In this document: one piece after another, positions 22,711-49,327 of the stretch
How the letters are laid out: the number at the start of each line of letters is the position of its first letter
How positions within the stretch are numbered: the stretch's first letter is position 1
Assembly (NCBI GenBank): GCA_964006375.1
Contig: OZ023265.1
Coordinates: forward strand, 171,369,156-171,433,155
From: Tillus elongatus
Taxonomy: Eukaryota > Arthropoda > Insecta > Coleoptera > Cleridae
Direction of reading: 5' to 3'
DNA length: 64,000 nucleotides
Position numbers and translations under genes: made by a program
Notes under the pieces: model-generated
The model's database searches: none
What the model was told of the DNA's origin: nothing
The model's input: only the letters and a program-made list of their open reading frames with translations

Positions 22711-23785
22711 ATGGAGAAAAAAAAATGACAAAGGGAAAATACACCCATAGTAAGACTAACTAAGGTTTGCTAGAAGATATGAGAAAAGAAAGAGCATTTA
22801 AAGGCATTAGAAGCATTTGAAATATGAACGTGGAGAAAATGACAGACAAAATACACCGATAATAAGGCGAACGAAGGTTTGTTAGAAGATATGAGAAAAG
22901 AAATATAATTTTAAGTCATTAGAAGCTTTTGAAATGGGGACGTCGAGAAAATGGCAGAGACGAAACACACAGATAATAAGACTCACAACGGTTTGCTAAA
23001 AGATTGAGAAAAGAATGTGCATTTAAAGCCATTAGAATCTTTTGAAATATGAACGTGGAGAAAATGACAAAATACACCGATAATAAGACGAACGAAGGTT
23101 TGCTAGATGATTGAGAAAAGGCAGATCATTTAAAGGCATTAGCAGCTTCTGAAATGTGGACGCGGAGAAAAAGGCAGAGGCAAAATTCACCGATAATAAC
23201 ACGAACAAAGGTTTGCTAGAAGAGATGTGAATAAAAAGATCATTTGAAGGCTACATACAGACTCGGAGACTACTTCTCTGGCTTTACTGTTGGGTTTCGT
23301 TTCTGTAGGTAAAGGACGGAGTCAGCGCGTGAGGTAACTGGAGCAAGCGCCCCTTCTGAATTCTAGATGTTCTAGGATGTTCTTCAACGTGCTTGACAGT
23401 ATCCTCAGATAGATAAAAAATGAGGATGCTGTCAAGCAGCGAAACTAGTCACATAAACGTTGAAGAACATCATAGAACATCTAGAATTCAGAAGGGCCGC
23501 TTGCTCCAGTTAGCTTACGCGCTGGCTACGTCCTTCACCTACAGAGACGAAACCCAACAGTGAAGCCAGATAAGCAGCCTCCAAGTCTGTATGTAGCACG
23601 GACCAGTTTCACTAAGTTAGGGCAAGAACAATCAATGAATTCATTTGAAGGCGTTAGAAGCTTTAAAAATGTGGCCGTGGTGACATTGACAAAAGACAAA
23701 ATACATCGATAATAAGAGAAAAAGGTTTGCTAAAAAATTAAGAAAAGACAGATCATTTAAACGCATCAGAAGCTTTTGATTATCG
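22711..23785 (+). repeat. Minisatellite, unit about 110 bp, six to seven degenerate copies
   Basis: The unit contains GGAGAAAATGACA, ACACCGATAATAAG, GAAGGTTTGCTAGAAGAT, GAGAAAAGA, CATTTAAAGGCATTAGAAGC and TTTTGAAAT. Five units run from 22711 to 23250. A hammerhead foldback element interrupts the array, and the sixth and seventh units resume at 23641. The last unit runs directly into the C-terminal codons of the Tc1-like transposase on the minus strand, so the array probably arose from that gene's 3' flank. Confidence 0.85.
23252..23640. mobile_element. Hammerhead foldback element, family B, with 12-bp target duplication
   Basis: The target duplication TCATTTGAAGGC lies at 23240-23251 and 23641-23652. 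Two inverted arms of about 150 bp (23252-23400 and 23445-23606) share TACAGACT, TTCGTTTCTGTAGGT, GGAGCAAGC and TTGAAGAACATC. They are separated by about 40 bp that hold remnants of two outward-facing hammerheads. The left copy (minus) keeps CTGAGGA at 23408-23402 but has lost GAAA. The right copy (plus) keeps GCTG/CAGC stem II, GAAA and the palindrome ACTAGT with C at the cleavage position, but CTGAGGA has become ATGAGGA. The right terminus is CAGTTTCAC...ATCAATGAAT, as in the copy at 48.1-48.9 kb. Confidence 0.75.
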
Positions 23786-23957
23786 GCGTCAATAACCGCT
23801 TTTACTCGTTTTGGAATTGATTTTAACAAGTCAGACTTTAACAAGAGGCCCGCACATGAATGACAGCTTGTATCGTCTTGTTTTTTGAATTACAGTCGTT
23901 TTTGCAAAGCTTAGCCTTGCAAATGCCCCATAGGTTCTCTATGGGGTTTTGATCGCG

Positions 23958-24378
23958 AGATAAATGGAGCCCAAACAATGGCCCATTATAATACAATGTC
24001 GCCTTCCCACGGTAAGAACCGCCGAGTCAGCCGCCGTCTTAACGGAGCCAAGAACTTGCAGGTTCAAAGTGCAAGTAGAACGGAATATCACTGTGAGAAT
24101 CGACATCAGCAGATTCCTTGTTATGCAGAGACAATAGTGCCACGCCTGGAGGGAAGACTACAAAGAGGCTAATCACAGAGGTAGAACCGTTCATTCTTGT
24201 TCCGAGTTAGTCATTCGCACACCGAGTGCATAGACATTAGATCACATGTAGGTTGATCGTCTTATTTTAGTATATTATATTATTCATTTTTCTTGTAACT
24301 AAATAATTAAGTATTGATTGTTCAAAGTATTAAATAAATTGTTTTAAAAAGTCAAACGTCTTAACCATGAAGTTAAGT
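23958..24378 (+). repeat. 5' LTR of the env-only element
   Basis: It starts AGATAAATGGAGCCC and ends GTGAAGTTAAGT-like sequence (here CATGAAGTTAAGT). An AATAAA poly-A signal lies near 24332. It is about 98.6 percent identical to the 3' copy by eye, with one 1-bp length difference near 24042. Confidence 0.92.
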
Positions 24379-24396
24379 GGCGCAGTCGTTAGTATT
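24379..24396 (+). other. Primer-binding site
   Basis: GGCGCAGTCGTTAGTATT follows the 5' LTR directly. Including the LTR's last T, it reads TGGCGCAGTCG, the tRNA-complementary site typical of several insect Ty3/gypsy errantiviruses. Confidence 0.75.
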
Positions 24397-24504
24397 GGTT
24401 AGAAAACCGAAAGGATATCGATTTTTAAGCGTATCGACGCCTAATAACCAATTCGAGCCAAGCAGAGCCAAGTTAAAGCAGAAATAGTGGCCAAGCAGAG
24501 CCAA

Positions 24505-26136
24505 ATGGAAGCAGCAACCATCGTATTATGGTTCCTTGCCACGGGAATAACAGCCCAAATACAAGACTTGACAGACAACCCAGGCATGTTACCAAAGAAA
24601 TTAGGCACAGCATACACTGAGACTAGCAAGTGGAATCTGATACACATACATGACTTGACACAATTACATAGAGACTACAACCAAATAAAAAGACACTACG
24701 CAAATACAGTTACCTTCATGACAAAAGATTACCATTCTGAATATCATAATTTCATATTGACATTGAATTTCACCATAGATAATGTAGACGATATATTTTA
24801 TAGGATTTTTCCGAATAACGATATTATTAATAGACGAAAACGTGGCCTAATAAACGGACTAGGTTCTATATTTAAGTCAATCACGGGGAATCTCGATTCA
24901 CAAGATGGGGAACGCATTCAACAAGCATTAGAAGTCTTAACGACAGATCAAAATAAAATTCATGAACTTTTTAGGTCTCAAAATTCAATCATGCTCGAGG
25001 CAATAGTCGAGTTTAATAACACGATAGTAGGATTGAGTCATAACCAAGGCACGATAGTAAATAGAATAAATGAATTAGGTAATACAGTAGAAAGCCTGCG
25101 AAGTGAACAATTAACTCACTATCATCGCATTAAGATCCTAGAGTTACTCATCAACAACAGAAAATGCCATCACTTTTGCAAAATTAGGAATCTTTCACAC
25201 ATCCATACTAAAACCAACATTTATAATAAAAGAAATCAATAAAATCCAAAATTATGCAACTAATGCTAAAGTAATAACAACCACTGATCTAAATCTATAC
25301 GAAAAAGTCTTTAAAATAAAAGCCGTCAAAAACAATTTCAAAATTATATTTCAAATAGAAATACCTCTGGTAGATGAATCAGAATATGATTATTATCAAT
25401 TATATACATTACCTGTCCCTAGAAAGACACACCTTTTACCATGATACTTCCTAGAACCAAATACCTTATCCTAAGCAGTAAACAATATGCCTATCGTAAT
25501 GAAGAATGTCAAAATTTAAAGAACCAAATATATTTTTGCAAAGACGACAATCCAACAACCATGAATGATCAAAACCCATGTGAAATAAAGCTAATAAAAT
25601 TTCAAAAACCTATTAACAATTGTAATCAAGAATTAGTCTAAATTAATAGAACCACAGTTTCGAGATATGGAACCAGTCAGTATATAGTTATAGCACCCGA
25701 AGAAACTAACGCCAGAATAACTTGCAAGGAACAGGAGTGGACCAACATCATCAAGGGTACAAAATTAATCAACCTGCAACCAAATTGCCAATTAACCATA
25801 GGCAACAAAATCTACAAGACCGGCCCAGCAACAGCAGAAACACAACATATATTCAACCTGCCTACACTAGAAACCCCCATTCCAGAAGATCAACCAAATC
25901 CAGGACCAGTACCCGAAATATCATTAGAAAACGTACAGCTACACAACATCAATCAAATCCAACACCAACTTCAAAAAATTAAACAAAATATACCAGGACC
26001 TATAACAATACCAATCCATCACCTGAGTATATGGACAATATTACTGTACATAGCTGTCTTAATAACCATCACAACGATAGCCGTCCGAATGGGGTTGAAG
26101 AAACGAAGAACCAGCAAAGAAGATAAAGGAACGTAA
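24505..26136 (+). pseudogene. env: Env of an errantivirus (F-protein type), frameshifted
   Basis: Envelope fusion glycoprotein remnant of an endogenous insect retrovirus. Translation most likely began at 24505 (an ATG at 24487 is in frame), giving a hydrophobic signal peptide. A furin-type site RRKR at about 24832-24843 is followed by a Gly-rich hydrophobic fusion-peptide-like stretch, as in the F-protein family shared by errantiviruses and baculoviruses. A heptad-like region follows. The frame is broken near 25190 and again near 25430, with an in-frame stop at about 25639. The last part carries one strongly hydrophobic transmembrane segment (about 26020-26095) and a short basic tail ending at 26136. 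It is not functional as it stands. Its nearest relative in the window is the env end at 49.98-50.6 kb. Confidence 0.85.
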
Positions 26137-26197
26137 ACAGGAACCACCGAGTCCGGATTTCCGTTGAAAATCCGGAACGAACCATAGCTTCGTCTTT

Positions 26198-26209
26198 AAA
26201 AAGGGGAGG
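26198..26209 (+). other. Polypurine tract
   Basis: AAAAAGGGGAGG lies immediately before the 3' LTR, in the position used to prime plus-strand DNA synthesis. Confidence 0.8.
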
Positions 26210-26629
26210 AGATAAATGGAGCCCAAACAATGGCCCATTATAATACAATGTCGCCTTCCCACGGTAAGAACCGCTGAGTCAGCCGCCGTTTAACGGAGCC
26301 AAGAACTTGCAGGTTCAAAGTGCAAGTAGAACGGAATATCACTGTGAGAATCGACATCAGCAGATTCCTTGTTATCCAGAGACAATAGTGCCACGCCTGG
26401 AGGGAAGACTATAAAGAGGCTAATCACAGAAGTAGAACCGTTCATTCTTGTTCCGAGTTAGTCATTCGCACACCGAGTGCATAGACATTAGATCACATGT
26501 AGGTTGATCGTCTTATTTTAGTATATTATATTATTCATTTTTCTTGTAACTAAATAATTAAGTATTGATTGTTCAAAGTATTAAATAAATTGTTTTAAAA
26601 AGTCAAACGTCTTAACCGTGAAGTTAAGT
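26210..26629 (+). repeat. 3' LTR of the env-only element
   Basis: It starts AGATAAATGGAGCCC and ends CCGTGAAGTTAAGT, followed by the CGCG duplication. The differences from the 5' LTR are single substitutions and one 1-bp deletion. Confidence 0.92.
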
Positions 26630-27160
26630 CGCGTAAATTTCAACGTCAGCCTAGAACTGTTGTCTCCTCATCCTGGAAATATATCATCATATTCTTCACT
26701 TTGTGACTGGAAGCAGATTCCTCCGTAGGTTTGGCACTTCGTGAGTTTAAATGATTGGTATTTTTGTTTGCCTGTCATGCCTATTGACACCATAGATTTA
26801 ACCCCCATGCGAGAGACCCCAGAACATTTTTTAATAGGATGCTTAATGTAAGCTTTCTAAGACATTTCGGTTGTTGACCATAAACTACGCAGTCAGTCTC
26901 ATCTGTAAATAACAGCCTTTTCCAGTCCTCTGTAATCTATGTGGCATATTTTCTGGCCCATGATAGCCTCTATTTCTTCATATGATCGGTTAGGAGTTGT
27001 TTTTTCTGCAGTGGAGTGGCCCGTCTCCTATCAGTTTCTAAAAGGCCCCCACGGATAGTTGAGTTATGAGTTAACACCAGATCTTGCTAAGTCTTGTCCC
27101 AACTCACGACTTGTTTCTGGAATCAAGTTACTATTTCGAAGCTATAAACTTTGTGGTCTT

Positions 27161-27727
<567 letters not shown>

Positions 27728-27931
27728 AAAGGTTACCAGACATAGAGCATCTTGTTATGCCCGCTCTTTTGTACCGAGGACTTCCAAGTTGTGGAATTCC
27801 TTGCCGGCACATATTTTCCTTCTCCTCCGAACCTTCAAGTCCAGAATTAACAAGTTGCCTCTTTCCTTCCTGTCGACACCCACGGTACGATAGTATTTAC
27901 GTTGTAAGCCCCCGTGGTGTGTTGTTGAAAA

Positions 27932-27934
<3 letters not shown>
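27728..27934 (+). pseudogene. LINE family J, copy J5: last ~200 bp
   Basis: It encodes the last part of the J protein (DIEHLVMPALL, RGLPSCGIPCRH) and the 3' UTR with GTGGTGTGTTGTTGAAAA, then runs into a TA tract. The 5' truncation point joins the mariner remnant. An apparent 210-codon ORF across mariner, LINE and TA repeats is an artefact of this fusion. Confidence 0.85.

Positions 27935-28012
<78 letters not shown>
27935..28012. repeat. (TA)n tract
   Basis: Between the LINE J5 3' end and foldback element F. Confidence 0.95.
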
Positions 28013-28015
<3 letters not shown>

Positions 28016-28634
28016 GGTGTTCAAATAAGGACACGGACCGGCTGTATCTCGAAAACCATCACAGCTGCAGCTTTCGGAAAAAAATTAGCATAAGTAAAGT
28101 GGCCATGAGAAAATGTTGGAAATTATTTTCAGCTTTCTAAATCTGCCGCTAGGTGGCGAAAATGGCATGGCTTACCTAAAATCTTTAATTTCTCGAGAAT
28201 CTTGACGCATAACATAAGCTGGTTTTAGGTAATTTGTAATCAACGTACACTTGTCTACAACCTCTGTTAAAAAAAATTTCCTTATAGACCAGTGGCGGAG
28301 GTAGGGGGCCAAAATTTTTTTTTACAAACAAATGCCTATAACTTGATAACCAGTAGACATAATTTTAAGAATTTTGGCTTGTTAGAAAGAGCTTTCATAA
28401 GAAATTCCAGGTATTAGTATTTTAAATCTACAGTCACACATGCACAAAATACATAGGGCGCTAGAATAGAGGAGTCTAGTTTTATTAAATTTTACGAAAA
28501 TTTTCAAATGGCAGCATAGTATTATAATATAACTATCAAAAAGTGAATGAAGTTAGAAAGAACTCAGTGAAAACCCAAAACGAATATGTTTTTCCGTTTC
28601 CGAGAAAACTCGAATTTTATGTATTTTGGTGCTT

Positions 28635-28681
28635 AGATAGATAGATAGGTGCTTTATTGTCCAAAGATAAAAATCTTATTG
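28635..28681 (-). mobile_element. About 45-bp LINE 3' tail inserted in the F left arm
   Basis: The right arm reads GGTGCTTATTATGCAATTTC without interruption. The left arm has about 45 extra bases after GGTGCTTA. On the minus strand these read CTTTGGACAATAAAGCACC followed by (CTAT)n: a poly-A signal and tetranucleotide tail typical of a LINE 3' end. It is an extremely short 5'-truncated insertion. Confidence 0.75.
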
Positions 28682-28802
28682 TGTCATTTCTCAAATTTGG
28701 ATATGAATATAGCAAAATCTCTATAGAATATTTGTTTTCAGGCATCGTTATACAAATTAGCATATAACATATAACATATAACAAATTTGGTTATCATAGC
28801 TT

Positions 28803-28933
28803 TTAGTGAATTTTTTTAAAAAAAAATCACTAATGAGGAGATCTCGACTTTTGAATTTTGAAAAAATTCCTTCAAATTAGCACTAATTAGGCCTCCGAGA
28901 ACACATATCCGGGGTCGGTTTGAATTTTTATAT

Positions 28934-29027
<94 letters not shown>

Positions 29028-29407
29028 CACACCGATAACTCAAAAAATAATGGGCCGATTTTGATCAAATTTGGTGAGTACCTTCCTTTTGCAAGTGGCT
29101 TGGATAAGTTCGTTAACCAGAAAAATCTGTTCAGTTGAAATAGATTAAACAATGTTTTCATTTAATTACACAGACGGATTCCCTCTATCAGTGTCAGTTC
29201 TGAGCCAGCCTTACATGTTTGGAAATTTTTCTACATTTTCACACAATAAAGTTATTTTTATAAAACATGGCACATTGTTTTTACTATATAGGTTATACTG
29301 GTAACCAAAATTGTTGCCTGCTTTCTTAAAAAGAAAACACACATATTTTCAATAAAAACATTTTAATGAAAATTCACTACCATAACGCACTTGCTGCGTC
29401 CAGAGTT
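28803..29407 (+). mobile_element. Complete HINE inside the F element
   Basis: It starts TTAGTGAATTTTTTTAAA and ends GAAAATTCACTACC, ATAACGCACTTGCTGCGTCC. The TA tract is at 28940-29023. The segment after the tract matches 9960-10130, including GTGTCAGTTCTGAGCC. Its flanks are themselves HINE-interior words (GGTTATCATAGC; TTTTTTGAGTGATACA), so it inserted into an older HINE. Confidence 0.8.
28940..29023. repeat. (TA)n tract
   Basis: Uninterrupted central tract of the HINE at 28803-29407. Confidence 0.95.
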
Positions 29408-29427
29408 TTTTATTTTTTGAGTGATAC

Positions 29428-29431
<4 letters not shown>

Positions 29432-29500
<69 letters not shown>
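29432..29500. repeat. (TA)n tract
   Basis: Joins inverted HINE sequence to the LINE J6 fragment. Confidence 0.95.
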
Positions 29501-29502
<2 letters not shown>

Positions 29503-29504
<2 letters not shown>

Positions 29505-29874
29505 GCTTTAGACCCTACTTTGTTTCTTCTCCACATCAATGACCTCCACTCTAGCACATCCAACCCAGTTCCCAGTTACGTGGACGATAGCATCCTCCAC
29601 TCAAATATACAATATTCTAAGCCTGTCTCTTTAGCCCAATTAGATGAGGATCGTAGACTCATGGAGGGATCTGTCTCCGTGGATCTCCAAAAAAAATTAG
29701 ACTAGGGAAGTAGAAATCTTGTACAATTCAACCCCGCCAAATCTCAGTCTTGCTTTCTTTCTCATAAGAGATACACCAACCCTAGACCCATCACAATGAA
29801 CAACCAAGTTATTCAAAGTAATGAGTCCTTTTTACTTGTTGGCATTTCTGTGGATCGAAATCTCAATTGGCACT
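29503..29874 (+). pseudogene. LINE family J, copy J6: internal palm fragment
   Basis: It follows a TA tract directly and encodes LDPTLFLLHINDLHSSTSNP, a catalytic motif SYVDDS, and the region up to VGISVDRNLNWH. It is truncated at both ends. A stop interrupts the frame at 29703. Confidence 0.85.
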
Positions 29875-30515
29875 AAATTTGAGAAATTGCATAATAAGCA
29901 CCAAAATACATAAAATTCGAGTTTTCTTTGAAACGGAAAAACATATTCGTTTTGGGTTTTCACTGAGTTCTTTCTAACTTCATTCACTTTTTGATAGTTA
30001 TATTATAATACTATGCTGCCATTTGAAAATTTTCGTAAAATTTAATAAAACTAGACTCCTCTACTCTAGCGCCCTCTGTATTTTGTGCATGTGTGACTGT
30101 AGATTTAAAATACTAATACCTGGAATTTCTTATGAAAGCTCTTTCTAACAAGCCAAAATTCTTAAAATTATGTCTACTGGTTATCAAGTTATAGGCATTT
30201 GTTTGTAAAAAAAAAATTTCGCCCCCTACCTCCGCCACTGGTCCATAAGGAATTTTTTTTTTAACAGAGGTTGTAGACAAGTGTACGTTGATTACAAATT
30301 ACCTAAAACCAGCTTATGTTATGCGTCAAGATTCTCGAGAAATTAAAGATTTTAGGTAAGCCATGGCATTTTCGCCACCTAGCGGCAGATTTAGAAAGCT
30401 GAAAATAATTTCCAACATTTTCTCATGGCCACTTTACTTATGCTAATTTTTTCCCGAAAGCTGCAGCTGTGATGGTTTTCGAGATACAGCCGGTCCATGT
30501 CCTTATTTGAACACC

Positions 30516-30757
<242 letters not shown>

Positions 30758-31380
30758 AAACGAAAGCTACCAAAATGATTCTATTAATTGACATAGCAAG
30801 CCTGTATGCATAACTCCGGTTTCAATGTGAAATATTGTAGGCAGGAAATTAGGTGAGTGTATGGGGCGACATTCCGAAGAACCACAATGGTGTTTGTAAG
30901 TGGGTGTTAAATAGCCTAGAGTGTATACACGACACGGGATTCTATTTGCCAGTATTTACACAAGGAACCCGCACCAAGGACCCGCCATTCTCAAATAAGC
31001 AGTCTAATCTGTACTTGACACCGTTTTACATCATCGATCAGTATATGTACTCCTTTACAACAAAATCCAACCATGTAGGAGAATTTTACTAGATATTTTA
31101 CATATACAGGTGCTTAAAAATATGTACCTACAGGGCGCGAAATAATTATTTTTGTTGGTTTATTCCAAATTTCTCTTGGAGACTGCAAGTTATTTAAATT
31201 AGTACATATTTGACTGCTAAAAAAGTGTGGACAGCTTCACCGGGGCCGTACGTATGTGCTATCAATACAATGTGGAACCGGTTGATTCGGTACGTTCTTC
31301 GATAGCTCTAATTGATTACGTGTAATTGACCGGTTGCATGTACATCAGGGGTTAGATGGTAAAGAAAACATTAACGCGGG
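30758..31380. other. No recognisable feature
   Basis: Possibly unique DNA. Short open frames show no motif. Confidence 0.4.
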
Positions 31381-31945
31381 TTAATTAAATGAATTTATTG
31401 CACAATGGGCAAAGTTACACAGACAATAATAAACAGAAGCGGTGTAATACAAAAAATACCTTTTCTTGCCTGGGACGTCGTTAATGGGCAGTTCGATGTA
31501 TGTTCGGGAACCTCCCTTCTTCACAGAGTAAATGACTTGTTGCACAGATGGAGAATAAGGAGCAGCTTCATTCTCTGGTACCCGCAGTTGGTAGCACTTA
31601 AATGGGAACAAGGCGCCACCTCGCCATATGTTCCACGTGGTTTCCAACACTTTTCAGAAGGTCACGTGGTTGCTACGGGCTTGTCTGCGTCCAATGCCCA
31701 GGGGACAACGAAGGACTCGAACTGATGAGTGTGAACTATAGAACGATCTTCGATGAAATGGGACTCTTGCAGCGTTCTTGATTCCGAAGTCTCGATGTGC
31801 TTCGGGGGTCTAGAAGGGGTAGGCGGCCTCTCTAGCCAATCAGACCGCCGTTCGAAAACGTAAATCTCCATGGTCACATCTTCGGGTTGACCATTATTAC
31901 TTGACGTGCCCAGGGTGACTAACTGTATTTTGGTGTCCATAGTCG
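31381..31945 (-). pseudogene. Unrecognised coding-like region, two overlapping frames
   Basis: Starting at an ATG at 31940 (MDTKIQLVTLGTSSNNGQPE), about 90 codons are open to 31662. A +/- frame change near 31655 leads into a second open frame (GALFPFKCYQLRVPENEAAP, VQQVIYSVKKGGSRTYIELP) that ends at 31381. AATAAA lies within the last codons. Base composition is more GC-rich and codon-like than the surroundings. No repeat in the window matches it. I recognise no domain. It may be a decayed host exon, a processed pseudogene or an unlabelled element gene. Confidence 0.3.
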
Positions 31946-31991
31946 GCACGTGCGTGTGGCAAAAAAGGTGTAGAAAATAACGACGGAACAC

Positions 31992-32740: not shown

Positions 32741-32756
32741 TTCACAGATGCCTGTG

Positions 32757-33243
32757 CATCTGTAACTATGGTGAGAATGCATCTAGCCTTTCACACATTG
32801 TCCCGGTATTATGTAGGAAAGAGCCAGGGCTGACAATTTACAAAATTGTTGGTTGCTTGTACACAGTCTCTATTTATAACATTTTGTGTTATTTGAAGCC
32901 GTCGTGACAACAAACTACCTTGTTTCGCATCGAGATGGCGATCCTGTCGTACATCTCACAATGCTCTAGGAGGCTGGCTACCTTAGCCGAATCACTTTAG
33001 GTGAATTCTCGTTGTAATTAGTATAGCGCACTGACGAGCTCTAATGAGAACAAAACCGGTATCCGTTTCTAATTATGGTGAGAATACATGTAGCCTTACC
33101 TACATCGTCTCGGCATTAGAAAAGAAAGGACCAGGGCTGACAATTTACAAAATTGTTGATTAGTTGTACACAGCCTCTATTTATACCATTGTCTGTTTAT
33201 GACAACATACTACCTGGTTGCGCACCGAGAGAGCGACCCTGGC
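32757..33243 (+). mobile_element. Tandem retrozyme-like repeat, family A, period 307 bp
   Basis: The phrase TATGGTGAGAAT at 32767 recurs at 33074, followed by the same landmarks: CAGGGCTGACAATTTACAAA, TTGTACACAG, CTCTATTTATA, GACAACA and CTACCT. The first unit is complete and ends in a hammerhead motif at 33014-33076. The second is truncated at about 33243. The first unit begins at or near the position equivalent to the cleavage site. Tandem units of about 300 bp joined at a hammerhead are the hallmark of animal retrozymes, and also of Penelope-like pseudo-LTRs. Confidence 0.75.
33014..33076 (+). ncRNA. Hammerhead ribozyme motif, core mutated
   Basis: Stem I strand TAATTAGTATAGCGCA, CTGACGA at 33031-33037, stem II GCTCT/AGAAC with loop AATG and one mismatch, then AAAA where GAAA is required, palindrome ACCGGT and A at the cleavage position. 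The G-to-A change in GAAA should abolish cleavage. Confidence 0.75.
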
Positions 33244-33409
33244 AATTACTACCTAGAGTACAAGGCCTCAGCTCTCGTGCGACGTCATAACAAGACGGCG
33301 AACGCTCTCGGTTCAGCTTTCGACCGCATATACACATTGATGTTAACGCGCATTGAAAAATTACTATAATAAGGGTTTCCTATGAAAACAGAGCTGCCAG
33401 ACCCAGAAC

Positions 33410-33572
33410 TGACTAGTCACAGAAACGTTGAAGAACATCCGAGAACATCTAGAATTTATAAGGGCCTTTTGCTCCAGTTAGCTTACGCGCTAGCTACGCC
33501 CTTTTACCTACAGAAACGAAACCAAACAGTGAAGCCAGAGAAGTAGTCTCCAAGTCTGTATGTGGTTTAAGT
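33410..33572 (+). mobile_element. Family B hammerhead element, right-arm fragment
   Basis: It begins inside the ribozyme (GACTAGTCACAGAAACG) and continues through TTGAAGAACATC, TTGCTCCAGTTAGC, TACAGAAACGAAACC and CCAAGTCTGTATGTGG, matching 23441-23600 and 48812-48900. The upstream ribozyme half is missing. Confidence 0.8.
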
Positions 33573-33579
33573 TTAAAGA

Positions 33580-34059: not shown

Positions 34060-34060
<1 letters not shown>
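33580..34060. other. No recognisable feature
   Basis: T-rich DNA with a motif-free open frame at 33664-33969. It may be interior sequence of the adjacent HINE. Confidence 0.35.
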
Positions 34061-34500
<440 letters not shown>

Positions 34501-34757: not shown

Positions 34758-34871
<114 letters not shown>

Positions 34872-35191: not shown

Positions 35192-35196
<5 letters not shown>

Positions 35197-35266
<70 letters not shown>

Positions 35267-35271
35267 GTATG

Positions 35272-38132: not shown

Positions 38133-38138
<6 letters not shown>

Positions 38139-38212
<74 letters not shown>
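38139..38212. repeat. (TA)n tract
   Basis: Left flank of the mariner; no TA repeat remains on its right side apart from the duplicated TA. Confidence 0.95.
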
Positions 38213-38213
<1 letters not shown>

Positions 38214-39468
38214 GAGAGCGGGTCAATAAGTCCGTGATTTTATGAATTTCCCGCCTCTTCACAGGAAGGGCAACACTGCTCCTGTTAAGCATCTGTCAGT
38301 TAGTTTTGAACAAGCTGCGTCATTTAGTTTGTGTTAGATAGCCATTGAAAGCATACAACCTCTTGAGTTATAACGAAAATGGAAAAAAGTGAATTTCGTG
38401 TGCTCATCAAACATTATTTTTTTGCGGAAAAAAACCTTCACTCAAACCTAGGCTAAGCTTGTTAAATACTATGGGGACTGCACCATCAATTTCTATGGTA
38501 AAAAAAGTGGTTTACTGAATTTCTTTGCGGCTGTACAAGCACAAATGACACTGAATGTTCTGGACGTCCAGTTGAGGTCGCTACACCTGAAACAATTGAA
38601 AAAATTCACGATATTGTGTTGGCCGATCGGATATTGAAAGTGCGGGAGATTGTGGAAGCCATAGGCATATCACATGGCTCAGTGGTTTCGATTTTGCATG
38701 ATCACTTGGGTATTAGAAAGCTATCCGCAGGATGGGTGCCGCGTTTGCTCACAATCGACCAAAAACGCAATCGTGTGACAGCTTCGAAGGAATGTTTGGA
38801 GTTTTTGCGCCATTTCGTAACCGTGGACTAAACATGGATTCACCACAACACCCAGAGACCAAGCAGCAGTCAAAACAGTGGGTTTCTTCGTGCAAATTGG
38901 CGCCGAAGAAGGCCAAGGTGGGTTTGTCAGCCAATAAAGTCATGGCGACCGTTTTTTTGGAAGCACGCGGTATAATCCACATTGATTACCTTCAAAAGGG
39001 AAGAACAATCAATGGCGAATATTATACCAACTTATTGGACAGATTCAGTGACGATTTGAAGAAAAAGCGATCGCATTTGGCCAAGAAAAAAGTTCTTTTA
39101 CACCAAGACAATGCAAGGGTGCACACATGTGTAGTCTCCATGGCGAAATTGCATAAACTAGGCGACGAATTGCTCCCTCATCCGCCCTATTCTCCGGATT
39201 TAGCCCCGAGTGACTATTTCTTGTTTCTAAACTTAAATAAATGGCTCGGCGGAAAGAGATTTGACTCCAATGATGAAATCATCTCACAAACAAATACCTA
39301 TTTTGAGGACCTCCACAAATCTTATTTGTTGGAAGGGATAAAAAATTGGAGAAACGTTGGACGAAGTGTATAGAGCTCAAAGGACACTGTGTGGAGAAAT
39401 AAAATGATTTTTTGTCAAAAAACATGTGTTTCATTCAAAAAGACACGGACCTATTGACCCCGCTCTCG
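38213..39468 (+). mobile_element. Mariner transposon, 1256 bp, in a HINE TA tract
   Basis: Terminal inverted repeats start CGAGAGCGGGTCAATAAG on the left. The right end is the reverse complement with one mismatch and one 1-bp indel. The TA duplication is the last TA of the microsatellite (38211-38212) and 39469-39470. The length is normal for mariner. Confidence 0.93.
38379..39373 (+). pseudogene. Mariner transposase, frameshifted
   Basis: It starts MEKSEFRVL at about 38379, the usual mariner start. Recognisable blocks in order are: LKVREIVEAIGISHGSVVSI (helix-turn-helix), KLSAGWVPRLLT (linker), FVTVD at 38828 (first Asp, followed by a stop where Glu is expected, then TWIHH), VLLHQDNARVHT (second Asp) and YSPDLAPSDYFLF (third Asp, 34-residue spacing as in mariner). 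At least three frame changes and one stop. The protein is not functional. Sequence is closest to the irritans/mellifera side of the mariner family by memory of motifs only. Confidence 0.88.
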
Positions 39469-40258
39469 TATCACACCGATAACTCAGAAAATAATGGACC
39501 GATTTTAATAAAATTTAGCACGTACCTTCCTTTTGTAAGTGGCTTGGATAAGTTCGTTAGCCAGGAAAATCGAACCAGGTTTTCTGGGAAAATTTTGGGT
39601 TTTCTTTCGGAAAATTTTTTTTATTTCAAAAAATAGAAAAGATATGGTAACCAAATTTGGCACGTAAGTTTACGATATTAAAAGGAAACTATACCAAAAT
39701 TTATATTTCTATGTTAAAAGAAAAAAATATATAAAAAATATTTGGTGTCTGATCATTTCTATGAAAATGCACTACCATAACGCACTTGCTGCGTCCAGAC
39801 TTTATTGGTACGCGGACAAAATTATACTCCATCTCTGCAGACGGCTAGCTGCATATATTCGAATTGCCCTTTTGTTTCCAAAAATACTTACTAATGGCTT
39901 GGCGTAGAGTTTCAGTAAGATTAACACCGTATTATTTTTTTGATTGCTTTTATAGGGATAGTTTCCACAAAGATGCCTTCTTTTACATGACCATAGGAAT
40001 TACGCCCCCTTAGCGGCAGAGTTAGGAACTTTAAAATTATTTCCAACATTTTCTCTTATCCACTTTCATTAACAGGATTTTTTCGCAAATCTCCTGGACC
40101 ATTCATTCCTGAGATATATTACCTCTTCGCCCTTGATGAAACACCATGTATAAATAGATAATTTGTAGGATTCTACATTAAAAACGAAACCGTTTTAACA
40201 AGAATGGATAATCCTTTAATTTTTGTTCGCGGTAAGGTAAGGTGAACCTTAAAAAATC

Positions 40259-40617
40259 TCGGGACGCAGCAAGTGCGTTATGGTAGTGAATTTTCATAAA
40301 AATGTTTTTATTGCAAATATGTGTGTTTTCTTTTTAAGAAAGCAGACATCAATTTTGGTTACCAGTATAACCTATATAGAAAAAGCAGGCATCAAATTTG
40401 ATTACCAGTATAACATATATAGTAAAAACAATGTGCCATGTTTCATCAAAATAACTTGATTGTTTCAAAACGTACAGAAATTTCCAAAAGTAAACCAAAA
40501 GTGTTACTGAAAAAATCCGTTTCTTGGTCAACCTTATAGGTTAATAGCAAATTGAGCTTTTCAAATATGAAGCATTTAATCAAAATTCGCAACCACAACG
40601 CACTTGCTGCCTCCAGA
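40259..40617. mobile_element. HINE derivative with two identical-type ends (foldback)
   Basis: The left end reads GGGACGCAGCAAGTGCG, TTATGGTAGTGAATTTTC. The right end reads AAAATTCGCAACCACAACGC, ACTTGCTGCCTCC, its inverse. So both termini are the GCTGCGTCC-type end. The TA tract and the other hairpin are absent. The same arrangement occurs at 51394-51668. Confidence 0.75.
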
Positions 40618-40829
40618 ATTTCTTAACTTACAAACATGCATTATATTTCGATGGAAAATGCAAAAAATAAGGCGTTTTCGACAAAAAAAATTATTTGTAT
40701 CACCAACGACTTATGGGCCACCCTGTGATTGTCGCAATAATTTTTTAAGATGTAGCTCAAAACACCGTATAATTAATGTATACAATATTTTTTCATATCT
40801 TGTATAATAACGAATATATTGAGCTTTAT

Positions 40830-41645
<816 letters not shown>

Positions 41646-42765
41646 TTTGGTCGTTTTGTGGCTCCCTGTATACCGGTAACATACTGTATCGTCGCGCAAG
41701 AGTTTCTAAAAGTTCTTATTTGAAACAAGAAAGTTTCCCTGGAGGCGACAATCGATCACTTATCTAGAAAACCCAATAAATGAAAAACTAAATGTTCCGG
41801 TCCAGGCGGTTTGATGTAGTTACAGGCACTTGCTCAATGTTCCGTCACTTCGAGTGGCCGCAGATTGGACCAGAAGAGAAAGAACAGTGAAGAGAAGAAC
41901 GGCAGGGTCGAAAGTAGTTTCTTTTCAAAACACCATTCAAGCCAGACGACCTAGTTTCGTATTAATAATAAAACTCGATTTTAACAAAATATTGGCTGTC
42001 GCAAGAGGCGTTATCTTAAATCGTGGACAGTTTTTTTTTTGTATGAAATTTATTTTGTGCATACAACGGCTGTGATTGTCTTTTTTTTCGACGTAATAGA
42101 TCATGCATTGGCGCGTCATATTGAAGTTTTTCCGGCCATCATTAGCTTTGTGCGGTGATAATATCTTTTCAATTGACTGTAAGGGCTGAATTGTTTCTAG
42201 ATTGAATTTACATTTGACTGCGAGTTTAAATCGACATGAGAATGGGGAACCAGCGACCGAGACTGGATTTTTTTGCACGTTCGCGAATGCTACGTGATAA
42301 GTTGTCAGTGTGAAAAATTAAAACATCGGTTTTCCAACATTTTTTATGTTCCATTTCAATTTTCGATGGTAAACTCAACGCAGAGGGACTAATTGAATAT
42401 TGAATGTTGCAGGGTTGAGCGATGAGCCGGTTAAATAAACACGTTCTGATTAGTGGACCCGCTCTGTTTGCTGTAAATTGTGCTGTGTGGTGGTTTTCTT
42501 TAATAATGCCAATCGTGCTTATTAACTGGCACAGACGCGTTAGGATTGCTATTTGGAGTTGGATTTGCATTTGATATAAAAACATAATTAATATCTGTTG
42601 ATTGCACATTTTTTATAACTCCTAAAAGCTAATTTGTATTACAAAATTAGTTACAAATTAGGTAAAAATCACCTGCAAAATTGTGTATTCTTTGCAGACC
42701 ATAAACGTTCTACGTGAACGTTTGTTTGCGGTGAATTCAGATCTACAAAGTGCACCTACTAGATA
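41646..42765. other. Possibly unique DNA, no recognisable feature
   Basis: No repeat in the window matches it. Open frames on both strands (for example 42226-42609, minus) lack known motifs. Confidence 0.4.
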
Positions 42766-42773
42766 CCTGTCAT

Positions 42774-44160
42774 CAGTGGCGGATTTGCCCTAAGGCCCAA
42801 TAGGCCAGGGCCTAGGGCGGCCAGATATTACGGGCGGCCAATCGTGACAAAAAACACATATGGCGTATGACGGCCGCACTGCACGGTGCAGTCTGCACCG
42901 CATCGTATAACAATAATCTTCCTAAATCACTTTCGCACATTTTATGTATAAAATATAGATATGATACATATGTATATTATGTTGGCAATAAAGTAATTTT
43001 TTTTTAATTTCAACAACACACCACGAGGGCTTACAGCCTAAATACTATCGTACCGTGGGTGTTGGCAAGGAGGAAAGAGGCAACTTGTTAATTCTGGACT
43101 TGAAGGTTTGGAGGTTCGGGGGAGAAGGAAAAACATGTGCCGGCAAGGAATTCCACAACTTGGAAGTCCTCGGGACAAAAGAGCGGGCATAACAAGATGT
43201 TCTATGTCTGGTGACCTGGACAGTGAAAGGGTGCATTCGATCTGTTCGGGGCAGCAGGTGGGGGAACTATGGAGGAAAGCTCCTATGAGGAGTGCCCGGC
43301 AGATATCTATAAAAGAGAGAGAGAGGTCATCAACGGCACGTCGGTGGGCAAGGGATGGCAGCCTTTGGGTGAGGGTAGGGTCTCCGATGAGACGTAAAGC
43401 TCTCTTTTGTATCGAGTCCAGGATAGCGAGTGTAGAAGCGGCAGCTGCACCCCAGATGTGGGAGCAGTATTCGAGGTTTGGCCTTATTTGTGAAGTATAT
43501 AAGGTATAGAGATTAGCTGGTGAAAAGTATTTGCGAGCCCGGAAGAGGAAACCTAATTTCTTAGCAGCCGCTCCTGCAATTGATGTGACATGCTGGTGCC
43601 AATTAAGATTTCGATCCACAGAAATGCCAACAAGAGAAAAGGACTCATTACTTTGAATAACTTGGTTGTTCATTGTAATGGGTCTAGGGCTGGTGTATAT
43701 CTTATGAGAAAGAAAGCAAGACTGAGATTTGGTGGGGTTGAATTGTACAAGATTTCTACTTCTCCAGTCTAATATTTTTTGGAGATCCACGGAGACAGAA
43801 CCCTCCATGAGTCTGCGATCCTCGTCTAATTGGGCTAAAGAGACAGGCTTAGAATATTGTATATTTGAGTGGAGGGTGCTGTCGTCCGCGTAACTGTGAA
43901 CTGGGTTGGATGTGCTAGAGAGGAGGTCATTGATGTGGAGAAGAAACAAAGTAAGGGCTAAATCTGAACCTTGAGGAACTCCTGCATTAATTGGATACAG
44001 TTTAGAGGAATGGCCATCCACAACAACAGAAATGCTCCTGTTGGAGAGGAAATTTGCTTTTTCATTATGTAGTCTATATGATGGGTGCTGAGAAAGGGGC
44101 GGCTGGTACTTACTACATGGCATGGGGCCTAGGGCGGCCAAGACTGCAAATCCGTCACTG
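42774..44160. mobile_element. Non-autonomous hAT element containing LINE J7
   Basis: The terminal inverted repeat CAGTGGCGGATTTG (left) pairs with CAAATCCGTCACTG (right). An 8-bp target duplication, CCTGTCAT / CCTGTAAT with one mismatch, flanks it at 42766-42773 and 44161-44168, as expected for hAT. Both ends also share the word GGCCTAGGGCGGCC. The non-LINE part is only about 330 bp and non-coding. Confidence 0.82.
43005..44056 (-). pseudogene. LINE family J, copy J7: best-preserved palm to 3' end
   Basis: Uninterrupted for about 340 J codons, with small frame slips near 43290. Blocks: SNRSISVVVDGHSSKLYPIN, GVPQGSDLALTLFLLHINDL, catalytic SYADDS intact, DLQKILDW, LVGISVDRNLNWHQHV, PNLEYCSHIWGAAAAS. 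The C-terminal tail is split over two frames (43236-43045 shows the original tail ending KLPLSSLPTPTVR). The 3' UTR ends TGTTGTTGAAATT plus an A run. It is 5'-truncated at 44056, where hAT sequence resumes. Confidence 0.9.
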
Positions 44161-44306
44161 CCTGTAATAAAATAATATATAAATTTAAACAAACGCGCTA
44201 TACGGGTGCATTTTTTCATAATTTCACAGAATTTATGGTATATTTTAAAATCAAATCTGCCAGCAGGAAAATAGCTCGTCTATTTTAGCGTAATATCTCA
44301 TGTAAC

Positions 44307-44696
44307 GTCTCGGTGGTTCAATGTTAGGAACAGCTGCATCTGAACCCAAGGGTACTGGGTTCGATTCCCAGTAGGTGACACTTTCACTTTTTCAGTACAT
44401 ACTGTAAAATTAATACCAATCGATGTTGTGACATTATGTCGGAGCAAGTTGAATGCCTGCATGTTCGGCCCTTCAGCGGGGGCGTAAAGCCGTCAGTCTC
44501 GTGTACCATGCGATGTTGGACACGTTAAAGATTCACACCCTCTTTACAGAAAGATAGGGCTTTGGCGAAATTTCCAGGATAGTGCGGTGAAGCTGCTTCC
44601 TGGCGTCGGTGATTGGCCGTAGTCGCAGGAGTAGATCGACGTTAAAAAAAGAGGTTTCATATGCTAAGTAGTCTCCATCGCCTCAATGTAATGTAA
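44307..44696 (+). mobile_element. tRNA-derived SINE, ~390 bp
   Basis: The head has an A-box-like GGTGGTTCAATGTTAGGA and a perfect B box GGTTCGATTCC (about 44348-44358). It is followed by a body with CGGGGGCGTAAAGCCGTCAG-like sequence, TCTTTACAGAAAGATAGGG and GCCGTAGTCGCAGGAGTAG. The end carries ATGTAATGTAATC, a short pentamer tail. A target duplication is not clear; ATGTAA occurs on both sides. It does not resemble the SINE at 37.2 kb. Confidence 0.75.
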
Positions 44697-44989
44697 TCAT
44701 CAAGCTTTGAATGAAATACAAAATAATTTTAAGTTGATAAAAGTAGAATAATGTTCCGTCCCATTTTCGACCTTTGAGTTTACCTCACTTTTTTTGAAAT
44801 ATTACAACATTCAAATATTATTAAAAACTATTTATCCATGAGTAAAACAAGTAAAACAAGTTAACTTGAATTCTAAACACACATTGTCAAAACTGTTCTA
44901 CAGAATTAGTTCTTTCGGCTTATTTTAATGATTCTTTGAAATGTGAAACACATTAATGCTGCATTGTTTGGATTAAATGTTCTCTATGA

Positions 44990-45178
44990 TTTATTTCTTC
45001 TTTCTAAACGAGGTCTTTTATGCGGCGCCAGTTATAAAAGTCCACAGGAGTAAAGTCTGGGAACCTAGATGGCCATGATATCGGTTCATTTCGCCCTATC
45101 AATCTATTAGGAAAATGCTTGTCCAGAAATTTTTGCACTTGGACACTACAGGGCGCAGGGCAGTCATTATTTTGATAT
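44990..45178 (-). pseudogene. Tc1/mariner-superfamily transposase fragment
   Basis: The frame reads NDCPAPCSVQVQKFLDKHFP, NRLIGRNEPISWPSRFPDFT, PVDFYNW. This matches the segment between the second and third catalytic Asp of the T1/T2/T3 type (QDGxPxH...FPxxWIGRxxPIxWPxRSPDxTPxDF). The LINE at 45.2-46.9 kb has its tail at the upstream boundary, so the LINE inserted here. Confidence 0.75.
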
Positions 45179-46860
45179 AATAATAATAAGCATAGCATTT
45201 ATTGTATTCAAGAACCAATAGTTTTATTACAAGGATCAATAATGGCGCTATTAATATAAATTCAACTATAGAAAAAAATATATAAACAATCGTTATGAAA
45301 AATATTTAGAGTCTATAAACTAAATCTAAAAACTATTAACTACAAAAATAACTAGTATTCTAATATCAACCGAAATAATTAAAAACAAATTTATTCATTT
45401 ATTATAAATGCCCGTACTCTTAAACAATTGATCAAAAAGTGATCTAAGGATTTTATATTTGGAACACCCAGATTATTTAATACACCTACCAGGTGTTTAA
45501 TACCCGTACTTAGGAGATGAGGTGTAACAGATTCATATATAGGACAACTGAAGAGTGCCTCAACGTTTCACATTCCTGCAGGTTACAAATTGAACAGTTT
45601 GCTTCAGTGTCAATCTTGAAACACACCCCCTTGTATGCAAACCTTAAACAAAATTTGGACGACAGACGCATCTGTACAATTATTGTGATCAATGGCATTG
45701 GGGCACACAGGCGCAAATAATTTTGTCCAGTGTGATGTGTTGTAAATAGCTGGCATAAAGCAGGATACCCAGAGAGTTGTAAACGAACAAGATCATCCGT
45801 GATAAGTTTGGACTCGAACCTATCGAAGAGACTACGTTTCACACGCTTCAGCACACCCAAGGTCAGAGAATCCCACAGTAAACCTTCGTTGATATAATTA
45901 AAGAAATATCAACCTAGCGAAGCAAGGAGCTGGGTACCTCCCCGAGCCCATAAGAGTTTTACAAGCCACGTAATACAATGTTTAAAAACCAACAAAGAAA
46001 GAGCTCTAAAGCCAGTCTCAGGTCTCACTATATAATCAGGAAAATTTATTCGCAGCGAAAATAGCATCTTGACAGACCGCACCTGTATTCTTTCAATCAT
46101 ATCAAGATACCTATTAGCCCAGACTTCACAAGAACTCTGCCAACCGCCCAGAACGATGGACTCGTGGAGTCTAACTCTGTCCTCCCGGCAATCAATTTTC
46201 GACCTGGCCATAATAGGCTGCGCTACTACTTTGAGCGCTTCTGGATATGACCGACGCCGCCATGTGAAGAAATGTGCAAGATGAAGAAAAACAGACCTTA
46301 AGATAGACGAAAAAAGCACATAACTTTCGTCTTAAGTTGGTTCACCCGTAGCCCATTGTCCTTAGAATACTGGGTCAGAATGTTTAGCTTTCTCTGCATG
46401 TCAACTGGAGAGTCGGCTAATAACACCAAATCATCCGCATACAGTAACACAAGTACGACTAAGTTACCATCAACATTTAATCCTTAAACCCCCTCGCACC
46501 GAAAATAATAGTCGATATCTGCAAGAAAAAGAGCAAAAAGGAGAGGACTTAAAGGATCACCCTGCAAAACGCCATCAGATATATTTATCTGCTCAGACAA
46601 CCGGTTTCCAACCCTAATCATCAAGGATGCATTATCATAGAGCGACCTGAAGACACGGATGATTTTTGAAGACAAACCCAGTGCAAATAGTTTATTCCAG
46701 AGAATGAAGTGGTTCACGGAATCAAACGATCGTTTGAAATCGTCGAACGCCACATAGACTTTGTGACCCTTGAGACGGAGGTGGGGTGGAATAATGATTT
46801 TGATATATGGTCTGTCTCTCGACGTCAAGAGGCACATATTGTGTTGTAAGTTAGTTTAAA
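45178..46860 (-). pseudogene. LINE family M: RT palm to 3' tail
   Basis: 46837-46484 encodes the palm: KVYVAFDDFKRSFDSVNH (catalytic Asp in VAFDD), SDGVLQGDPLSPLLFALFLA. After a stop, 46480-46400 gives LYADDLVLLADSPVDMQRKL with the catalytic YADD intact. 46319-45909 gives WANRYLDMIERIQVRSVKM (thumb). 45860-45510 gives the C-terminus with a Cys-rich CSICNLQECETLRH. The 3' UTR ends AATAAATGCTATGC followed by (TTA)n at about 45178. No RNase H is seen. The clade is uncertain. Confidence 0.85.
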
Positions 46861-48123
46861 GTAGTTTTAAAAAGTTTCATTCCATTTATATTGTCATACA
46901 AAATTGTGGACCTATGAAAACCCTTCCTATTATTCGAGGATCCACGGTGACATTGAATTTCCACTGAAACTTAATTCTCTCGTTTCTTGTATGGATATTC
47001 CTCAGCTCAGTAATGTAAATTAAGAAAATGTGTTGTACCTTCTCAGCCTTTGCACCCACTTATCTATTACCAAGCTTATAATTCTTGGAGACTTACCCTG
47101 AACATTTCTTAACTTAATAAAATGTCTACAAATAATGATATAGTGTGATACACGAATCGGAAGGCAATGGAATTAGGATGTTTTTAAGAATATTGGAATA
47201 ATATGTTGCGATACTTAAAAAAAGTGACGTGAACTCAAATGACGAAAATGGGATGGACCATTTTTCTTCTTCCATCAATCTAATATATTTTTAGTATTAC
47301 ATTCAAACGTTGATTATTACATTACATAAATGCAATATACATTACTAGACATATGAGAACACTACGATAAAATAAACTGGCCATTTTTTCTACTGGCAGA
47401 TTTTTTTCAAAATTAACCATACATTCTGTAAGATTACGAAAAATGCCTATATCTCGAAAAACCGAAACACTTGGCATATAAACATGTATGATTACTTGGG
47501 TTGCAAATGGATCCTACCGTCACCTATTTTCAGGTCAGCATCGCTGAACCAAATACTCTGTATATAGATGAGTAAATTTTCAACGAACCATTTTGTATAA
47601 AGAAAACCGCAGGTCTAGGTTGTAAGTAAATCATTGGTAAAAGCAAGTAAACATATCTTCTTGCGAGATAGATCAAATGGTAATATTACATCATAATCAA
47701 ATCTAATCATAATTTAGAATCAAAGAAAAATAAATAAATTCCCAAACATCATCCGCTAATTCATTTCCATTATTTTCCACTGAACTTTAATTCTCAATGT
47801 TTAGATTTGACGGCGGGTATCCAAAGCACGGTCACGTTGCAGCTCACATTTAATTAGTTGGGGATTTTTATTTTTATCCGATATAAACACCGCCTGCCCG
47901 GATTGCTCGCTAGGTGCTTTATTAGACCAACTGCCAGCGCCTGCGCATCTACCGGGTTATTTAATTAAAGCACACTCTGAATAAGAAACAATGTAGCAGT
48001 GGCTTCCGTTTGCTGCAGCAGCAAGAATTTATTAATGATTCTTCTTGAAAAAAACAATTATATCCATAGCCCGGTTCCAGCTGGTCGTAGCTTCAGGGGA
48101 GAAAGATGGCTCCAAGAAATAAT
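46861..48123. other. Possibly unique host DNA
   Basis: No match to any repeat in the window. 47810-47990 is unusually complex and GC-balanced, including CGGCGGGTATCCAAAGC and CAGCGCCTGCGCATCTACC, in otherwise AT-rich sequence. There is no ORF. Confidence 0.4.
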
Positions 48124-48269
48124 TTCTTTGGGTACTACATACAGACTTTGAGACTACTTCTCTGGCTTCGCTGTTGGTTTTCGTTTTTGTAGGTGAAGGA
48201 CATAGCTAGCGCGTTAGCTAACTGGAGCAAGAGGCCCGTATGAATTCTGGAAGTTCTAGGATGTTCTTC

Positions 48270-48318
48270 AACGTTTCTGTGACTAGTTTCGCTGCTTGAC
48301 AGTATTCTCAGACAGGTT
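48270..48318 (-). ncRNA. Hammerhead motif, left arm, core mutated
   Basis: On the minus strand: CCTGT, CTGAGAA (48311-48305; G8 changed to A), stem II weakened, GAAA intact, palindrome ACTAGT, C at the cleavage position, ACAGAAACG closing stem I. The mutation at the invariant G should inactivate it. Confidence 0.7.
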
Positions 48319-48792
48319 AAAATTGAATTAGTACGAAATCATGACAACTACAAATAAACATCTGTTGCTATGTTATGATATGATGTTTTGATCAAATTGA
48401 AAATAAAATGAAACACAGATGACAGATGAGGCTTACAAAATGTCTACGTGATGTATGTCAAAATTTAACATAAAAATAGAACTAGCCTATAATAACTATG
48501 ATAACAGTTATAACAATAAAATAACTAAACAATAACAGTATAAAAGGTGTCTCTATATAACGAAATTATTGACATACATCAACTCATTATCTTATTACAA
48601 CTTTTTTGAAAGAATAGTAAAATTTATTTTTCTTTGACTTATTTAATTAGAAAGAAGAATATCCAAGAAAGGGGAATTCATTAAGTCAGTTTGCTCGTTT
48701 AAAACAAGGTAGCTATTGATCAAAACATCATATCATAACATAGCAACAGATGTTTATTTGTAGTTGTCATGATTTCGTACTAATTCAATTTT

Positions 48793-48840
48793 AATCTGTC
48801 TGAGGATGCTGTCAAGCAGCAAAACTAGTCACAGAAACGT
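48793..48840 (+). ncRNA. Hammerhead motif, right arm, core mutated
   Basis: TCTGT, CTGAGGA at 48800-48806, one extra T, stem II GCTG/CAGC, then AAAA in place of GAAA, palindrome ACTAGT, C at the cleavage position, and ACAGA pairing with TCTGT. The two arms carry different core mutations. Confidence 0.7.
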
Positions 48841-49110
48841 TGAAGAACATCATAGAACTTCCAGAATTCATAAGGACAGTCTCCAAGTCTGTATGTAGTA
48901 TGGACCAGTTTCACCAAGTAAGGGCAACAACAATCAATGAATTCTTTGGGTGCGCCGCAAAAGATGACAAAGTTACTGCTTCTCATCCATTAAATATCTT
49001 GATTTGAGAGCATCTAGTTTAAGAGGGTATTTGACACGACGAGAAATAAGTTATGAAGTTATGTAAAGGCAATGGTCGATGCAATGAGACACTATAATAT
49101 ATTAGCTGAT

Positions 49111-49327
49111 AAGTACACTGGGAGAGCCCAAATCACCACAACACATTTTAAAAAGACCTGACGATCGTTTCACTAACCAAGTTAGCGTCATCAGAGGATG
49201 AAACATTCTGAATGTTTCATTCTCTGATGAAACGATCGTCAGGTCTTTTTAAAATGTGTTGTGGTGATTTGGGCTCTCCCAGTGTATTTATCAGTGCTCA
49301 TCACAGGTTCCAATCTTCACTTAGTAG
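49111..49327. mobile_element. Hammerhead foldback element, family C, with 14-bp target duplication
   Basis: The target duplication TATATTAGCTGATA is at 49097-49110 and 49328-49341. The element is 217 bp. Inverted arms share ACACTGGGAGAGCCCAAATC, ACCACAACACATTTT and AAAAGACCTGACGATCG. The centre holds a left hammerhead on the minus strand and a right copy from which stem II is deleted (CTGATGA directly followed by AACGATCG). The right end reads CAGTGCTCATCACAGG and ATCTTCACTTAG. Related fragments lie at 56118-56205 and 59607-59774. Confidence 0.82.
49154..49200 (-). ncRNA. Hammerhead motif, family C
   Basis: Minus strand: ATCCT, CTGATGA (49194-49188), one extra C, stem II GCTAAC/GTTAGT with loop TTG, GAAA, palindrome ACGATCGT, C at the cleavage position, AGG pairing with CCT. 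All core bases are present apart from the extra pyrimidine before stem II. Confidence 0.7.

Follow-up and report, generated by a model that had tools for sequence, protein, structure and literature searches.

A 64,000-nt stretch of the beetle Tillus elongatus (C4:171369156-171433155; hereafter the window) carries several short elements in which two copies of a hammerhead ribozyme sequence lie as inverted arms and face away from each other. What kind of event produces such foldbacks? The question touches two broader ones, namely how Penelope elements finish their insertion and by which machinery the hammerhead repeats of animals are mobilized. The original prediction, made from the window sequence, placed inverted, outward-facing arm pairs of four families (B, C, D, and E) in it, and such pairs were found at every position given there; a fifth family, A, is also considered here. 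Our analysis indicates that each foldback probably arose in a single insertion event, carried out by a Penelope-type reverse transcriptase that also has a GIY-YIG endonuclease, with the two outer ends of the insertion starting at two different, fixed sites.

The families were searched in the genome (1.72 Gb in 30 contigs). The hammerhead core pattern of A and E gave 1,209 matches, compared to 0 for the reversed control, and the exact-end C palindrome gave 592, compared to 0 for its control. The first-look candidates numbered 2,595 for B, 1,178 for E, 1,939 for the C palindrome, 909 for the single C arm, and 827 for D, and 40 were scored in each of these searches. The copies examined were the best-scoring or first-listed ones and not a random sample. 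Repeat sightings of one locus were merged, which reduced A from 24 to 22 and E from 36 to 31 (L033/L043, a tandem pair, being treated as one); six of the E loci derive from the family A pattern search, and low-identity E matches within TA runs were excluded.

The inverted pairs had one orientation. Among the 155 insertions examined in all five families, 64 pairs faced outward and 0 inward, with partner arms classed within ~1.5 kb (loci) or 5 kb (tables). Family C contributed 19 outward and 0 inward pairs in 34 insertions, with one further direct partial, D contributed 7 and 0 in 38 insertions, and B 9 and 0 in 30 loci. Outward pairs were observed in 10 of the 22 distinct A insertions and in 19 of the 31 E loci, the other 12 E loci being without an inverted arm. 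Direct copies were present too, as arrays in A and E and in B at two loci (L062 and L066). The outward-facing ribozyme pairs are genuine and not a product of chance. The expectation that they are not the outcome of chance decay is borne out.

Outward-facing arms are likewise predicted by ordinary twin priming, which is known from LINE-1 and in which the other DNA end begins synthesis at any place where it happens to pair with the RNA. The position of the outer ends distinguishes this from priming at fixed sites. In family C, one outer end lay at ...CCAAGTGTACTTAT (site 1) and the other ~34 nt beyond, at ...CTTCACTTAGT (site 2), in 21/21 units, which were selected by a palindromic query that carried no tail. 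By tail we mean the stretch between site 1 and site 2, which one end carries. In family B, the partner arms ended at site 1, ~45 nt short of site 2, in 10/10 cases; this set consists of nine of the 30 loci and the copy at 48.1 kb of the window, and the query used for it had fixed the right end at site 2 in advance. The ten B units are head-to-head pairs with one tail each, as in the pseudo-long terminal repeats (pseudo-LTRs) of Penelope-like elements (PLEs). The left ends were fixed at one of two sites in both families (B 10/10, C 21/21) rather than scattered, and twin priming is therefore very unlikely. With an even chance of either end type, the binomial probability of the mixed ends in C is 4.8e-7.

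The single tail was also seen in a wider set of C units. When the initial 6 nt of the tail were required on one side, the search pattern had 287 matches in the genome, and the 100 listed correspond to 99 units. The exact 6-nt tail start was present on both sides in 1/99 of these listed units, a count that misses decayed second tails and cannot include units without any tail.

The same ends bear on self-priming, in which the complementary DNA folds back and copies itself into a head-to-head palindrome. This route, with an antisense template, is proposed for a rotifer Penelope (PMC3846280), and at many C joints one arm terminates on its inner side in a short hairpin, so that self-priming may contribute to joining. 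However, a self-copied arm should end at the start of the first arm, and the two ends differ in 21/21 C units. On the inner side, too, the arms usually have unequal ends. As an account of the foldbacks, self-priming is unlikely.

Most of the C and B units are flanked by a target duplication. In C, duplications of at least 8 bp were found in 19/21 units, compared to 4/420 mismatched pairs. One of them was 8 bp long, 16 were 11–15 bp, and two, within TA runs, were 21 bp. In B, duplications of 6–14 bp were present in 10/10 units. They reached at least 7 bp in 9/10, compared to 1/90 mismatched pairs, and this control reached at least 8 bp in 1/90 as well. In A, 4/8 units had duplications of 7–15 bp, compared to 0/56 mismatched pairs, with boundaries set by hand. 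Because 26/31 E loci have TA runs nearby, E duplications are not readable. An automatic duplication search on A and E gave chance or TA-run matches at many loci and was left out of the counts. The duplications in C, B, and A mark insertions, not REARRANGEMENTS. They also speak to an origin of the elements as transposase-moved inverted repeats similar to miniature inverted-repeat transposable elements (MITEs). Family C is palindromic and seemed to be TA-flanked at first, but its duplications are mostly 11–15 bp and variable in length, and its ends are unequal in 21/21 units, which leaves such an origin hardly credible. We dropped the MITE identity of C, as the duplications are longer, a single tail is present, and neither equal inverted repeats nor a fixed short duplication was found.

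In contrast to the outer ends, the inner junctions varied. Among the 21 C units, 19 different inner joints were found, and three units shared one. In 18/21 units, one arm extended to about AGAAT, and the other fitted the full arm at only 11–43 of 53 positions; a short hairpin was often present at the joint. The fixed inner end in C suggests the 5′ end of the RNA, but the palindromic query that was used to pick the 21 units favors compact forms. The distance between the matched arms of the C pairs ranges from 24 to 3,666 bp and is 24–49 bp in 12/19. The B units range from 274 to 1394 bp. The original prediction proposed a class of small mobile foldback units. Such units, moving as units, would agree with the similar size of the 592 exact-end C palindromes and with the short spacing in 12/19 C pairs, but the 19 different inner joints in 21 units (in the palindromic-query sample), the 19 units with their own duplication, and the varied unit lengths speak against this proposal, and it is very improbable, slightly more so than twin priming. 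Each foldback instead looks like a separate insertion that was made anew, a primary product of PLE insertion. The alternative that most copies are fragments of full-length Penelope elements had been tied to random inversion breakpoints; the inner breakpoints are indeed variable, but the outer ends are fixed. Six C pairs enclose 0.9–3.7 kb, among them one at C1:92529255-92533084, and may contain long or full-length elements. Among the matches listed, the C arms are mostly 99% identical over 82 bp, and the family looks young.

The two arms of one insertion were slightly more similar to each other than to arms of other insertions. In B, the identity was 0.900 within and 0.879 between insertions (3/2000 permutations; 9/10 pairs used). 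In C, it was 0.973 within and 0.965 between (5/301; two arms were wrongly cut). This difference could also come from a common age and not only from copying of one RNA molecule.

The sequence of the arms points to their source. The B arm starts CTGAGG-ATG-CTG-TCA, and a frame opens there whose start codon is overlapped by the ribozyme core. The C arm has the same arrangement, with CTGATGACG (both read by eye). From this layout, we read the B and C arms as PLE 5′ regions, and D is possibly one too. The layout is that reported for the anole PLE, whose hammerhead overlaps the start codon (PMC11167929). At several B loci, a sense frame lies upstream of the same B arm, and for a 280-aa frame of this kind (L079) a search at E ≤ 1e-3 gave 97 relatives, many of them marked RVT_1 and some GIY-YIG; several of the named relatives are insect proteins. 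The B frames had no Pfam match at 1e-3 and no result in NCBIfam, and a PDB search gave two matches only (E 0.44 and 0.62). The foldbacks had been described as free of open reading frames, which is right only in part, as on our reading the B and C arms hold a frame start (the ATG in the ribozyme core), and a PLE-type frame lies upstream in other B copies. The proposal that these elements are probably moved by a Penelope-like enzyme is supported by the PLE-type frame upstream of copies ending in CAGTTTCAC...AATCAATGAA. A genome search for GIY-YIG gave 14,221 first-look candidates; 150 were scored, 150/150 were above the cut-off, and none was located next to a particular family.

The putative hammerheads in B, C, and D are our reading of the core motif. 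An Rfam search of the window gave no match at the gathering score, and its three hammerhead matches at E ≤ 10 were sub-gathering (E 3.1e-5, 0.0048, and 3.8) and all in A or E. MicroRNA labels such as MIR9486 and mir-297 in the same search were rejected, as they were below gathering scores and can be put down to TA runs and the palindromic sequence.

Families A and E are of another type. They consist of tandem ribozyme units of 304–323 nt, within the range of animal retrozymes (tandem repeats of ~150–450 bp with a type I hammerhead). To call all families unrelated was therefore too strong, as B and C, and possibly D, are read as PLE 5′ regions, and A and E are tandem ribozyme repeats. Arms of one to several units, as in the window E copy and at L001, L017, and L036/L046, fit a circular or multimeric template. 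With the ends typed by eye, not blind, 14 of the 19 E pairs were mixed, one was of the (1,1) type, none was (2,2), and four were unclear, with the sites near m75 and m226 of the 304-nt monomer. In A, seven pairs were mixed (one of them in the window), one was (1,1), none was (2,2), and three were unclear. Mixed ends thus account for 14/15 assigned E pairs, 7/8 assigned A pairs, and 21/23 of the two families together (binomial at 0.5, 3.3e-5). A short inverted arm at L037 and several of the A and E end types depend on the reading of printed flanks. Families A and E are of the animal retrozyme type and share the inversion and the rule of one end of each type with B and C.

For A and E only, another retrotransposon enzyme may insert the retrozyme-type repeats and leave a similar pattern by chance. 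The sites of these families are wider apart than the PLE tail, and E favors TA runs, with a run of (TA)8 or longer nearby at 26/31 loci, whereas B (5/30) and A (2/22) do not. On the other hand, the outward-only inversion, the two fixed ends, and the presence of one of each are common to A/E and B/C. The involvement of another enzyme is possible but doubtful. The apparent preference of E for TA microsatellites is seen, for example, at 62470–62559 and 62980–63073 of the window and at loci within L011–L060.

Several observations weigh against insertion of all these families by PLE machinery with paired start sites. Besides the unblinded typing of the A and E ends, same-site pairs exist, one in E (the window copy) and one in A, and four E and three A pairs are without assigned end types. 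The A and E sites are ~150–180 nt apart, compared to ~34–45 nt in C and B, and neither of these two families has been connected with a PLE protein. The A boundaries used for the duplication count were set after the ends had been seen. The evidence from PLE frames comes from B, with no frame read for C or D, and the B frames match Pfam GIY-YIG weakly, below the cut-off (E 0.011 for L079 and 0.0011 for L068). Finally, the anole report (PMC11167929) describes start sites that are apparently alike on the top and bottom strand, and a tail that is optional. Three of the unassigned E pairs (L021, L040, and L053) share a left end at monomer position 289–290, a possible third start site.

In the reaction that we propose, the enzyme would cut the target in a staggered fashion, leaving the target duplication as a trace. 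Each of the two 3′ DNA ends would then serve as a primer within the element RNA, starting reverse transcription at site 1 in one case and at site 2 in the other. This end pattern is observed; an enzyme dimer acting on one RNA could produce it by making both ends in one concerted reaction. Both copies would be extended toward the RNA 5′ end, and for this reason the arms would face outwards and the ribozyme, which is 5′ of the start sites, would land at the inner side. Extension of the copies would end prematurely or run up to the RNA 5′ end, and the copies would then be joined, in keeping with the variable joints observed. Because the PLE start sites are just inside the reading frame, a single-unit messenger RNA would yield only a short foldback without the frame, and a tandem PLE transcript would yield a long copy. 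A reaction of this type would also insert A and E, with a circular or multimeric RNA as the probable template. In vitro, both strands are cut and extended by the protein of the anole PLE, which initiates at two internal sites on either side of the tail and is predicted to form a dimer (PMC11167929). We lean toward the view that in PLE retrotransposition the two DNA ends are primed from two fixed RNA sites, probably on one RNA and by one dimer, and that the same reaction inserts animal retrozymes, which would make PLE machinery the mover of hammerhead circular RNAs. The fixed pairing of start sites makes the completion of Penelope insertion and the movement of animal hammerhead repeats testable in PLE-rich genomes and in the existing in vitro assay, and the "optional tail" becomes a mechanistic marker.

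The window copies themselves show these features as follows. The predicted target duplications of 12, 10, and 14 bp proved correct. The B copy at 23.3 kb has an inverted left arm at 23252–23458 (−), with its outer end at site 1 and without a tail, and a right arm at 23421–23640 (+), which holds the ribozyme core and the start of the PLE frame and ends at site 2 with the tail. It is flanked by the 12-bp duplication TCATTTGAAGGC (23240–23251 and 23641–23652). The B copy at 48.1 kb has a long left arm at 48134–48718 (−), ending at site 1, and a right arm at 48716–48941 (+), with site 2, a tail, and an internal gap near 48876; its 10-bp duplication is TTCTTTGGGT (48124–48133 and 48942–48951). In the C copy at 49.1 kb, the left arm (49112–49209, −) ends at site 1 and the internally shortened right arm with tail (49210–49327, +) at site 2, between the two copies of the 14-bp duplication TATATTAGCTGATA (49098–49111 and 49328–49341). 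The C copy at 59.6 kb has a left arm at 59609–59690 (−), with site 1 and 84% identity to the 49.1-kb arm, and a right part at 59691–59774 (+), with site 2 and the tail at 59741–59774. A ribozyme-like core, CTGACGATG...GCGAAACCGG, adjoins this copy at 59836–59900 (−) and is apparently from another family.

An additional family A foldback of 123 bp (53456–53578), absent from the original prediction, has a left arm at 53456–53492 (−), with its outer end at site 1, and a right arm at 53497–53578 (+), with its outer end near site 2. The D arms lie at 57449–57562 (−) and 57740–57870 (+), and no target duplication was found by eye at this copy. The left arm of the E copy (62560–62857, −) is about one whole repeat unit, the right arm is at 62858–62979 (+), and both outer ends are at site 1 against (TA)n runs, making this copy the sole same-site pair among the assigned E pairs. 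As (TA)n runs flank it on both sides, no target duplication is readable. Remnants of family A are present at 32763–33237 (+), 8636–8842 (−), 3595–3774 (−), and 12280–12320 (−), and one of family B at 33412–33566 (+). Elsewhere in the window, large inverted repeats at 2171–7475 and 1775–8178 have arms of 316–453 bp with 92–93% identity; the frames under them resemble non-LTR reverse transcriptases. The frames at 24448–25242 (+), 25642–26136 (+), and 49978–50478 (−) resemble envelope-type proteins of insect gypsy-like elements, and those at 20518–21192 (−), 38717–39373 (+), 60965–61486 (−), and 61720–62256 (−) resemble mariner-type transposases.

Head-to-head PLE repeats and two start sites are already known, and PLE hammerheads are reported to cleave as dimers. 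That the two start sites are paired almost obligatorily seems new, as does the presence of this pairing in retrozyme-type repeats; neither the rule of one end of each type nor PLE-type ends on retrozymes was found in the literature searched, a search with most subscription journals outside its coverage. The comparisons that follow refer to the parts of the cited reports available to us. Animal non-LTR retrozymes (PMC7229834, with coral, mussel, and axolotl among the hosts, and PMC7761336) resemble A and E in their ~300-nt tandem repeats, type I-like hammerhead, and lack of an evident frame in the copies read. Unlike for A and E, no inversion or fixed ends are described for them (PMC7229834), and their mover is merely suggested: PLEs are named as the likely movers, with no motif revealing the machinery used (PMC7761336). 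The anole Penelope (Poseidon, PMC11167929) shares with the elements described here the two internal start sites bounding the tail, the extension of both strands, and the preference for AT-rich DNA, but neither foldbacks nor the opposite ends of a single insertion are connected there with its two sites. The Penelope of Adineta vaga (PMC3846280) has head-to-head inverted pLTRs with a short extension on one of them, solo repeats, and target duplications (8–10 bp there), as observed here. Unlike in Adineta vaga, many units here are short and without the body of the frame. Its 31-bp tail is optional, with self-priming offered as the cause, whereas one tail per unit is near-obligatory in the elements described here.

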